Of a stretch of DNA of 64,000 nt, positions 12,450 to 53,377 are shown in pieces. Numbering within the stretch: position 1 is the first letter of the stretch; each line of letters begins with the position of its first letter. The notes beneath the pieces are model-generated. The model saw only the letters and a list, made by a program, of their open reading frames with translations. It was not told where the DNA came from and ran no database searches. The DNA is taken from the NCBI RefSeq assembly GCF_001049895.1, contig NZ_CVPE01000006.1, positions 1,076,503 to 1,140,502 of the forward strand, written 5' to 3'. This DNA comes from Rubeoparvulum massiliense (GTDB lineage: Bacteria; Bacillota; Bacilli; Rubeoparvulales; Rubeoparvulaceae). The position numbers were made by a program, and so were the translations under genes.

Positions 12450-12657
12450 TGGTGCAACACTCCTTTACTCTAGTCTTTGTAGGGACGAACATGGATATGG
12501 AAAGGTTAAACCCTGGTAATCACCGATAGATTACCCTATATGTATGGCAGAGCTCATTAGACTATTCCTGCTGTAGTTCTCCTCATGTTTATCCTTTCCC
12601 ATTTATGCTATATTAAAACTACCCAGTCCACATCCTTCCAGAGAAAGGGGCCTATTA

Positions 12658-17257: not shown

Positions 17258-18730
17258 TTGATAAATCAAGAAAAAATGCCATTATTCCATGGATTGATCC
17301 AACATGCCCAACGGAGGCCCCTTCAGTTTCATATCCCCGGTCATAAAACTGGATTAGGAATGAATAAGGAATTCCGTGACTTTATTGGCTATAATGCTCT
17401 CTCCATCGACTTAATCAATATTGCTCCACTGGATGATCTTCATCACCCTCATGGCTTAATCAAAGAGGCAGAAGAGCTTGCTGCAGCAGCCTTTGGAGCT
17501 GATTATACCTATTTCTCTGTCCAAGGTACAAGCGGAGCCATCATGGCAATGGTCATGTCCACTTGTAAACCAGGCGATAAAGTAATCGTACCCAGAAATG
17601 TCCACAAATCGATGCTGAATGCAATCATTTTTGCAGGCGCATTACCCATCTTTGTCTATCCTGAAATGGACCAGCGTCTTGGTATTGCTCATGGTGTTTC
17701 TACCGACTCTGTCCGCCGAGCCATCCAACAGCATCCTGATGCGAAGGCAGTTTGCGTCATTAATCCTACCTATTTCGGGATTGCTGCTGACTTACGCTCC
17801 ATCGTTCAACTTGCCCATGATGCAGGGATGTTTGTGTTAGTTGATGAGGCTCATGGTGCTCATCTACCTTTCCACGAAAAGCTTCCTGTTTCCGCCATGG
17901 AAGTAGGTGCTGATATGGCTGCGACCTCTTTACATAAGCTAGGAGGGAGTCTTACAGGAAGCTCTGTTTTAAATATTCGTAAAGACAGGGTTCGTCCTGA
18001 GCATGTACGAGCTGTATTTAGTATGCTAACCACCACATCAACCTCTTACATTTTATTGGCATCCTTAGATGCTGCCCGACAGCAGCTTGCCCTACAAGGA
18101 CACGAATTAATTGGTCGTACAATTAAGCTGGCAGAAGAAGCACGTCAACGTATTAATGAGATTCCTGGACTCTATTGCTATGGTGCCGATATTCTTGGCG
18201 GACCTTCCACCTTCGACTATGACCCAACCAAATTGACCATTCATGTGAATGGATTAGGGATCAGTGGCTATGATGTTGAGAAGTGGTTACGTGAGAAACA
18301 TAACATTGAAGTGGAACTAAGTGATCTCTATAATATCCTCTGCTTTATCACCATGGGGGATAATGCAGAGAGCATCCATGCTTTAGTACAAGCCCTTCAA
18401 GATCTCTCCACTACCTTTTTCAAGGAAGGATTACGACAAGCACAGCCTGTTACCCTCCCTCATCTTCCTGTGCTAGCCATGTCACCACGGGATGCGTTCT
18501 ACGCTGAGACAGAGGTTGTTCCTTTTGCTGAAGCTGTAGGCAGAATCATTGCCGAGTTTGTCATGGTCTATCCCCCGGGCATTCCCATTCTGATGCCAGG
18601 AGAAGTGATTGAACAGGAGAACCTAGCATATATCCAACAGAATCTTGAAGCTGGCTTGCCAATTCAAGGACCTGAGGATAATCAAATTCAATCTCTCAAA
18701 GTGATCAAAGAGCATGAACCTATACGCTAA
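17258..18730 (+). CDS. speA: Arginine decarboxylase SpeA (Orn/Lys/Arg decarboxylase family)
   Basis: 490 residues, the same length as B. subtilis SpeA. The start is a TTG at 17258 spaced 7 nt after AAGGGGG, which keeps the family N-terminus (LFHGLIQHAQRRPLQFHIPG); an ATG at 17276 would cut it. The PLP-binding lysine is Lys227 in SLHKLGGSLTGSS, with DEAHGAHLPFH before it. The C-terminal domain holds SPRDAFYAETEVVP and VMVYPPGIPI. The enzyme converts arginine to agmatine, the first step of polyamine synthesis in Bacilli. It is convergent with an SR1-like small RNA gene. Confidence 0.95.
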   Translation: MINQEKMPLFHGLIQHAQRRPLQFHIPGHKTGLGMNKEFRDFIGYNALSIDLINIAPLDDLHHPHGLIKEAEELAAAAFGADYTYFSVQGTSGAIMAMVMSTCKPGDKVIVPRNVHKSMLNAIIFAGALPIFVYPEMDQRLGIAHGVSTDSVRRAIQQHPDAKAVCVINPTYFGIAADLRSIVQLAHDAGMFVLVDEAHGAHLPFHEKLPVSAMEVGADMAATSLHKLGGSLTGSSVLNIRKDRVRPEHVRAVFSMLTTTSTSYILLASLDAARQQLALQGHELIGRTIKLAEEARQRINEIPGLYCYGADILGGPSTFDYDPTKLTIHVNGLGISGYDVEKWLREKHNIEVELSDLYNILCFITMGDNAESIHALVQALQDLSTTFFKEGLRQAQPVTLPHLPVLAMSPRDAFYAETEVVPFAEAVGRIIAEFVMVYPPGIPILMPGEVIEQENLAYIQQNLEAGLPIQGPEDNQIQSLKVIKEHEPIR

Positions 18731-18747
18731 GTGAAATAACCCCATTC

Positions 18748-18786
18748 AAAAAAAAACGCTTCGTAATTTAAACGAAGCGTTTTTTG
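18748..18786. terminator. Bidirectional terminator shared by speA and the SR1-like RNA
   Basis: AAAACGCTTCG and CGAAGCGTTTT form a strong stem, with T-runs on both strands. Confidence 0.93.
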
Positions 18787-18789
18787 CCG

Positions 18790-18933
18790 TTATTCATCCT
18801 CGCACTCAGCATCTTCATCTTTACAGTGACAGCCTGTTTTCCCGTGCTCACACGTCCCATATGCAGTTCCTGCTTTGTCTGAATCAAGATACTGCAATAC
18901 TTTTCCACAATGTTGACATACCAATGCTTCCAT
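18790..18933 (-). CDS. SR1P-like GapA-binding peptide
   Basis: 47 residues, beginning MEALVCQHCGKVLQYLDSDK and ending in an acidic, cysteine-rich tail (CHCKDEDAECEDE). The CxxC near residues 6-9, the YGTCEH segment, and the CHC motif match the SR1P family, whose B. subtilis member binds glyceraldehyde-3-phosphate dehydrogenase GapA and promotes RNase J1 and RNase Y association. The SD is GGGGAGAGG. A longer overlapping frame in this stretch is a shadow. Zinc binding by the cysteines is likely from their spacing. Confidence 0.8.
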   Translation of the reverse strand: MEALVCQHCGKVLQYLDSDKAGTAYGTCEHGKTGCHCKDEDAECEDE

Positions 18934-18977
18934 CCAACCTCTCCCCTTTGTATGGAATACCCTAGTTCATCATATTG

Positions 18978-19007
18978 ATCGTAATCTGTTATGCTACATT
19001 TCGTCAA
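18978..19007 (-). promoter_or_regulatory. Predicted promoter of the SR1-like RNA
   Basis: On the minus strand TTGACG, an 18-nt spacer, then TACGAT. In B. subtilis SR1 is repressed by CcpN and CcpA under glycolytic conditions; I could not identify a clear operator here. Confidence 0.5.
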
Positions 19008-19066
19008 TAGGATATTAATGCTATACTATTTCCAACTGCTCGCACTTTTGCCCAATTGTCATATTG

Positions 19067-19095
19067 TTGTCAAACTTATTGGGGAATGTTACACT
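19067..19095 (+). promoter_or_regulatory. Predicted promoter of the DUF1885-like gene
   Basis: TTGTCA, a 17-nt spacer, then TACACT, 53 bp before the start codon. Confidence 0.5.
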
Positions 19096-19147
19096 AATTA
19101 TAGTAATTATCATGACAATTCAGTGCAATTATCGAGGAGTGGATACC

Positions 19148-19606
19148 ATGGAAAAAAGCGCCTATATCAAGTTGGTTGAAGGCTCCACACAGGCAAAAAT
19201 TGATTTGCAGGGCGTTGAAAATTTGTTACGGCAATATCAAGAGATGCTTAAGAAAACTGGTCAACAGCTGGATAGTGATTATACACAGTGGGCATTCCCC
19301 TATCAAATGGAGAAAAAGAATGATGGTGAACACTATTGGCTACAGTTAACCAGTAAAGAGCCGATGAAGTATAAATATATCCTCATGGGTGTTGGTAATG
19401 AAGAAGTCATCGTTCCTGCTGAGAATGAAGAGAATGCGAATCCACAGACCATAACCCGTTCTTACATCCAGGTTGTCCTACCTGATGTAGCCATGCAGAG
19501 TGATAAAGGCAAGGCTAATGAGTTTTGTAAATTTATGGCGAAACAATTAAAGGCTGAATTACATATGTTCAATGGACGGATCCTGTATTATAATCCTCGC
19601 AAATAG
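19148..19606 (+). CDS. Small unknown protein, DUF1885-like
   Basis: 152 residues from the ATG at 19148, which has GAGGAG 7-8 nt upstream; earlier in-frame starts would run into the promoter. The N-terminus MEKSAYIKLVEGSTQAKIDL and the central AFPYQMEK resemble the DUF1885 family of Bacillales, known by structure but not by function; this assignment is from memory and moderate. The protein is soluble with no membrane span. Its 3' end is followed after 5 bp by a solitary IS-derived hairpin that now serves as its terminator. Confidence 0.7.
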   Translation: MEKSAYIKLVEGSTQAKIDLQGVENLLRQYQEMLKKTGQQLDSDYTQWAFPYQMEKKNDGEHYWLQLTSKEPMKYKYILMGVGNEEVIVPAENEENANPQTITRSYIQVVLPDVAMQSDKGKANEFCKFMAKQLKAELHMFNGRILYYNPRK

Positions 19607-40405: not shown

Positions 40406-40522
40406 ATCTCTTATCGAGAGAGGTGGAGGGACTGGCCCGATGAAGCCCAGCAACCATCAAGCCTACACGCTTGAAAGGTGCTAATTCCTGCAGAATGTTA
40501 CGATTCTGACAGATGAGAGGGT
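40406..40522 (+). promoter_or_regulatory. SAM-I (S-box) riboswitch
   Basis: The conserved core reads GAGAGAGGTGGAGGGACTGG, then CCCGATGAAGCCCAGCAACC, and later AAGGTGCTAATTCCTGC. P1 is formed by CTCTTATC and GATGAGAG. It precedes a strong terminator and metNIQ, so SAM binding should terminate transcription. Confidence 0.96.
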
Positions 40523-53131: not shown

Positions 53132-53164
53132 GTCCCTGCCCCACGACCCCGAAGGCGAAACATC

Positions 53165-53344
53165 AGTCTGTTACTAGGCAGGTCTCCTGACTTATGCTTC
53201 TCTCTACTCTGGTCCTTCCCATATTGGCGGCGATTCAACCCTTCCAATACAGTGGTTCTCCATTTCGTCCACATTTACAGTTGCGGGGACAGTTCCGGAC
53301 TCTCACCGGATTCCCGATTAAGCCTTGCGGCGCCTAACAGACTA
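53165..53344 (-). promoter_or_regulatory. Cobalamin (B12) riboswitch
   Basis: On the minus strand the core is complete: GGGAATCCGGTGAGAGTCCG, then CTGTCCCCGCAACTGTAA, GAGAACCACTGTATTGG, and the B12 box AAGTCAGGAGACCTGCC. P1 pairs GTCTGTTA with TAACAGAC. It is followed by two terminator-like hairpins and then nrdA, so B12 should reduce nrdAB transcription. Confidence 0.95.
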
Positions 53345-53377
53345 ACACAATATATTGAATTTTGTTTGATAAAACAA
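53345..53377 (-). promoter_or_regulatory. nrdA promoter with overlapping NrdR-like box
   Basis: On the minus strand TTGTTT, a 17-nt spacer, then TATATT (53349-53354). The plus strand at 53345-53360 reads ACACAATATATTGAAT, which matches 14 of 16 positions of the NrdR box ACACWATATATWGTGT and covers the -10 box. A clear second box, usual for NrdR, was not found. Confidence 0.65.

Follow-up and report, generated by a model that had tools for sequence, protein, structure and literature searches.

A divergent sr1 orthologue beside speA in Rubeoparvulum massiliense, with CcpN-type boxes at its promoter

The window that we analysed, a stretch of 64,000 nucleotides from the genome of Rubeoparvulum massiliense (2,843,796 bases), carries what sequence comparison identifies as a real, divergent orthologue of sr1, the gene for the small RNA SR1 and its peptide SR1P. 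The peptide half of this assignment is well supported by comparison. Taken as a whole, it is quite probable that the gene is an sr1 orthologue that is repressed by CcpN on sugar and whose peptide acts through GapA on RNase J1; transcription, translation and the binding of CcpN and GapA at this locus are inferred. The locus is a further case of a known system, here in a distant branch, and no new kind of thing.

The SR1P gene and its neighbours

An earlier note on this DNA had assigned a short cysteine-rich ORF to the SR1P family, and a profile search agreed: the ORF (18790-18933, minus strand, 47 codons plus stop) matched Pfam PF13790 with 27.1 bits (E 4.7e-6), over the curated cut-off of 26 bits. 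In a six-frame search of the source genome the same place was the single SR1P match and scored 24.8 bits, below the cut-off of 26. It also had the lowest score among the places listed in the class-wide SR1P search, and nothing was returned from NCBIfam for the 47-residue ORF. The ATG is preceded by GGGGAGAGG (18938-18946, minus strand), a ribosome binding site read from the sequence. The peptide, as read from the ORF, has a CxxC motif (C6, C9), Y25 of the YG motif, C28, a C-terminal cysteine pair (C35, C37) and two further cysteines.

Among the genomes compared, the source genome was the only member of its family and of its order, and homologues were therefore sought across the class. SR1P was found in 145 of the 398 sampled class genomes, in 81 of 145 genera; about 151 SR1P places were counted in the class, and 131 loci were used (130 plus the window locus). 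Since these loci are related and unevenly sampled, the locus counts are not independent. Every one of the 131 peptides carries an N-terminal CxxC, and four or more cysteines are present in 130; in the alignment, C6 and C9 are invariant and the Y25 region is nearly so. A second CxxC, present in 98 of the 131, is missing from the window peptide, in which the C-terminal cysteines are unusually spaced (C28-x6-C35-x-C37). The longer acidic tail that the earlier note had singled out lies inside the variation of the family: 13 of the 131 peptides are at least 47 residues long, and in the net acidity of its last ten residues the window peptide is at the top, level with seven others.

That the ORF arose by chance or is what remains of a decayed gene is very improbable. 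The lowest listed score in the class search, the lack of an NCBIfam match and an Rfam score below the gathering threshold (see below) would fit such an origin, but the Pfam score is over the cut-off, the residues that are invariant (C6, C9) or nearly invariant (the Y25 region) are in place, the order of promoter, box, ribosome binding site, ORF and terminator is intact, and both neighbours are conserved. An overlapping 79-residue frame that starts with TTG (18768-19007, minus strand) was rejected as a gene, as profile searches gave neither a Pfam nor an NCBIfam match. Because it has no family match and its start codon is the TTG with which the -35 hexamer begins, we regard this frame as spurious, as had been suggested before.

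In the window, the SR1P gene is convergent with a speA-type decarboxylase gene (17258-18730, plus strand; Pfam OKR_DC_1, 349 bits) and divergent from a DUF1885 gene (19149-19606, plus strand, in a frame of 19064-19606, the start being approximate; Pfam PF08968, 157 bits). The place beside speA had been described as conserved, and this is indeed the case. Flanks of 1.5 kb were fetched for 30 loci and of 2.5 kb, contig permitting, for the others; 85 of the 131 loci had speA in this flank, convergent and downstream every time, with its start within 600 nt in 71. Among the 46 loci with no speA in the flank are many from relatives with long genomes, part of them Brevibacillus. A DUF1885 gene was divergent and upstream of sr1 in 75 of the 131 loci. 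Because speA is convergent downstream and DUF1885 divergent upstream in the same way, comparison of gene order identifies the window locus as an sr1 orthologue. A functional link of DUF1885 with SR1P or speA is possible.

Named records with SR1P include Brevibacillus, Melghirimyces, Laceyella, Shimazuella, Thermoactinomyces, Virgibacillus and Evansella. The available text of a 2021 paper places SR1 homologues in 139 species, "only in Bacillus and Geobacillus" (PMC8501984), and that of a review of the same year confines all SR1 homologues to the order Bacillales (PMC8464778). The first range is too narrow; with the order taken in the broad NCBI sense, the Bacillales range remains valid. The closest peptides in the named records were those of Melghirimyces, Laceyella, Shimazuella and Thermoactinomyces, the best of which were 62-64% identical across their first 28-29 residues. 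Thermoactinomyces-type SR1P shares the MEA-VC start with the window peptide, whereas its C-terminal cysteines align closer together, and some loci of this type have no speA in the fetched flank.

The locus resembles the B. subtilis SR1/SR1P (YkzW) system in its peptide family (PF13790), in an RNA of about 200 nt with an ORF that ends beside the terminator, in the convergent speA, in the placing of CcpN-type boxes before the -35 and within the spacer, and in the presence of GapA. The convergent speA was seen in three loci (L010-L012) that we take to be the B. subtilis group, L012 having a 221-bit Rfam match. The window peptide is longer than that of B. subtilis (47 versus 39 residues), and its C-terminal cysteines are further apart.

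The SR1-like RNA and its pairing with argR mRNA

The ORF would be carried by a predicted SR1-like RNA of about 223 nt (18749-18971, minus strand), the 5' end of which was placed from the promoter and from an Rfam match at 18976-18750; SR1 is reported to be about 205 nt long and to be expressed under gluconeogenic conditions. The match to Rfam RF02376 (antisense_SR1) covered model positions 1-210 of 210 with 29.6 bits (E 7.9e-4 in 601 nt). In contrast to B. subtilis SR1, the window RNA does not reach the gathering score of 45 bits and is therefore absent from the Rfam list made at this threshold. The SR1-like RNA of about 220 nt proposed earlier is supported by this weak match over the full model, which falls short of the curated gathering threshold. 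When 13 other SR1P loci were scanned with RF02376, seven matched at E ≤0.1 and four reached 45 bits. The predicted RNA has a folding energy of -59.3 kcal/mol (z -3.4). Elsewhere in the window, a SAM riboswitch (40408-40519, plus strand) and a cobalamin riboswitch (53160-53352, minus strand) scored over the gathering score.

Transcription would start from a sigma-A-type promoter, TTGACG-18-TACGAT (18978-19007, minus strand), which matches the consensus in 9 of 12 positions and has a poor -10 (TACGAT). Three comparable sites were found in 801 nt versus 2.0 expected, and the promoter call is therefore weak by itself. The leader between the RNA start and the SR1P ORF is about 38 nt long. At the other end, the stop codon is followed after 4 nt by the 14-bp stem of a bidirectional terminator hairpin (18751-18785, both strands) that is common to sr1 and speA and flanked by T runs on both strands. 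Its predicted energy is -18.5 kcal/mol on the minus strand and -17.6 kcal/mol on the plus strand, and none of 200 shuffles was as good on either strand, which bears out the earlier claim of a terminator common to the two convergent genes. This hairpin was missing from the output of the consensus scan, though found by the folding test.

The claim of pairing with argR (ahrC) mRNA gained no support from the prediction, which performed no better than shuffles. The best accessible duplex of the window RNA with argR mRNA had -8.3 kcal/mol, and 40 of 60 shuffled RNAs were as good; for the window terminator arm, 224 of 300 shuffled targets paired as well. RNA 3' ends were set by a T-run heuristic, and for L029, L082 and L087 no T run was found. 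Undetectable argR pairing is a difference from B. subtilis SR1, to be read with the fact that most B. subtilis-group controls failed too: shuffles were as good in 40 of 60 cases for L012 and 19 of 60 for L010 in the duplex search, and in 263 (L010), 58 (L011) and 283 (L012) of 300 cases in the terminator-arm test. Therefore, the pairing tests lack power, and an sRNA function is neither shown nor excluded by them. Over the whole set, two of 31 pairs in the terminator-arm test had no more than 8 of 300 shuffles as good (L080 with 4 and L083 with 8), and in the accessible-duplex search L007 beat 60 and L132 50 of 60 shuffles. For the LYG-codon region in 31 species pairs, the mean duplex energy was -17.7 kcal/mol with the cognate argR versus -16.6 kcal/mol with non-cognate argR (permutation p 0.011, composition not controlled). 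In B. subtilis, pairing starts in the left terminator arm according to the available text of a review (PMC8464778); the sequence of this arm is different in the window.

A full dual-function RNA as in B. subtilis, which would code for SR1P and also pair with argR mRNA and block its translation, is conceivable here but rather doubtful. The orthologous position and the RNA length speak for it, as do the csrA and argR genes present in the source genome and the slightly stronger cognate duplex over the 31 pairs, with the stated proviso on composition; it is opposed by the shuffle results for the duplex search and the terminator arm, both from low-power tests, and by the changed sequence of the arm in which B. 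subtilis pairing starts. We lean slightly towards a small mRNA, in which SR1P would be the sole product and the RNA would have no target, with CcpN control as in our main account. Apart from leader and terminator, the RNA consists almost wholly of the ORF, it is the peptide and not the terminator arms that is conserved across the loci, and the argR signal was absent from the duplex and terminator-arm tests. This reading has to be set against the weak cognate signal over the 31 pairs and against the available text of two publications, which report that B. subtilis SR1 and most of the homologues tested have both functions (PMC8464778, PMC8152036).

CcpN boxes and the connection to GapA

The best functional clue at the locus is a pair of CcpN-type boxes, which are absent from the earlier note. 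All box scans used TRTGHYATAYW, which we take to be the CcpN box consensus. One box, TATGCTACATT (18990-19000, plus strand), is in the promoter spacer and the other, AATGCTATACT (19017-19027, plus strand), directly upstream of the -35; each matches in 10 of 11 positions. A third box-like sequence in the 5' UTR, TATTCCATACA (18949-18959, minus strand), also matches in 10 of 11 positions and is probably due to chance. The two main boxes, with their one mismatch each, are placed as in the B. subtilis promoter psr1, where, according to the review text available (PMC8464778), one CcpN site adjoins the -35 on its upstream side and the other is within the spacer.

Taken alone, the two boxes are modest evidence: two such boxes occurred in 110 of 5000 shuffles of the window upstream stretch, and one-mismatch boxes were not enriched across the whole window (54 found, 47.5 expected). 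Much larger differences were seen family-wide, where counts were compared with exact dinucleotide shuffles. A box with at most one mismatch was present upstream of SR1P in 124 of the 131 loci (shuffles 35.7, maximum 44), at least two boxes in 107 (shuffles 9.6, maximum 12) and an exact box in 100 (shuffles 2.6, maximum 6). The operator thus travels with the gene (124/131), which offers a simple rule for finding sr1. The only exact box in the window is at 12604-12614, 44-54 nt before a 212-residue ORF (12658), and may be there by chance.

The consensus was checked on GAPDH genes: exact boxes were found at most 230 nt upstream of 13 of 13 gapB-like genes versus 0 of 15 gapA-like genes. This set comprised the 28 of 30 loci that were readable (the pattern did not catch L256 and L258), and L261, equally near the gapA and gapB types, was counted as gapB-like. 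In the source genome itself, exact boxes precede gapB and, in two copies, pckA, and gapA has none. The genome also encodes CcpN (NCBIfam equivalog NF053704, 326 versus 260 bits), and an exact box lies across the likely start of ccpN (L135), which suggests self-repression; autoregulation of ccpN has been predicted for lactic acid bacteria, as the accessible part of one paper states (PMC3616900). We conclude that control of the window sr1 by CcpN is well supported by comparison, with binding at the two boxes being predicted.

A cre-like core, ARCGNTTWCAWW, was found in the leader, about 30-60 nt before the start codon, in 49 of the 131 loci (shuffles 4.0). The upstream scan detected no such element in the window leader, and in this the window 5' UTR differs from B. 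subtilis SR1. The CcpA site of B. subtilis sr1 is about 260 bp upstream, according to the review text available (PMC8464778).

GapA had been named earlier as the partner of the peptide. The source genome indeed has a gapA behind a CggR-type gene (CggR_N upstream), as well as a separate gapB; binding of the window peptide to this GapA would be as in B. subtilis. There, the available text reports that SR1P binds GapA and raises RNase J1 activity, Lys332 of GapA being decisive (PMC8152036). K331 of the source genome GapA falls in the Lys332 column. Since this column is a lysine in only 7 of the 15 gapA-like proteins compared, all from SR1P-bearing genomes, it carries no weight as evidence for GapA binding.

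The most likely course of events is that on sugar CcpN, at the box upstream of the -35 and that in the spacer, would keep the sr1 promoter shut, and sr1 is probably switched off during growth on sugar. Under gluconeogenic conditions, CcpN would most likely free sr1 together with gapB and pckA. The RNA of about 223 nt would then be translated into SR1P, which would most likely bind GapA, the glycolytic enzyme then idle, at its C-terminal helix. By analogy with B. subtilis, the SR1P-GapA complex would raise RNase J1 activity, so that the otherwise idle GapA would serve in RNA decay. Nearly all work on the CcpN-sr1-GapA circuit comes from B. subtilis; the circuit itself is probably ancient.

Likeness of SR1P to the Fur/PerR cysteine site

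SR1P shares a CxxCG-like first knuckle and a YGxC-type second knuckle with the Zn(Cys)4 site of Fur, PerR and Zur, but has neither the intervening helix nor the rest of the protein. A speculative and on balance unlikely extension of our account would be that SR1P is a small Fur/PerR-type Zn(Cys)4 site standing on its own, which would bind zinc; in the window peptide, the second knuckle of this site would be stretched. The metal or thiol state of SR1P would decide on docking to GapA, and decay by RNase J1 would then answer zinc or oxidative stress in addition to the carbon signal from CcpN. This likeness makes the role of the SR1P cysteines, a long-open question, directly testable. Among the freely accessible papers searched, those listed for SR1P with zinc or cysteine included none with a title on SR1P and metal.

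The likeness itself may be due to common ancestry, to convergence on a zinc knuckle or to neither. A profile of 81 SR1P peptides picked up both halves of the Fur-family Zn(Cys)4 site, with a best whole-sequence E of 0.003, and no single stretch was significant in this search. The AlphaFold model of SR1P has three strands and a mean pLDDT of 74. In Foldseek, the first 20 rows were Fur-superfamily by their titles, with a best E of 0.58 and none significant; VIA-align gave no match of the model at Z ≥2. Fur-type C-terminal regions were readable by pattern in 17 of 30 loci, and a profile comparison of SR1P with these 17 gave a probability of 87% (E 3.8e-6, for a single comparison) versus only 12.5% in a global alignment in the other direction. 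When columns were shuffled with the cysteine columns kept, none of 100 shuffles reached the score (maximum 27.0 versus 30.2).
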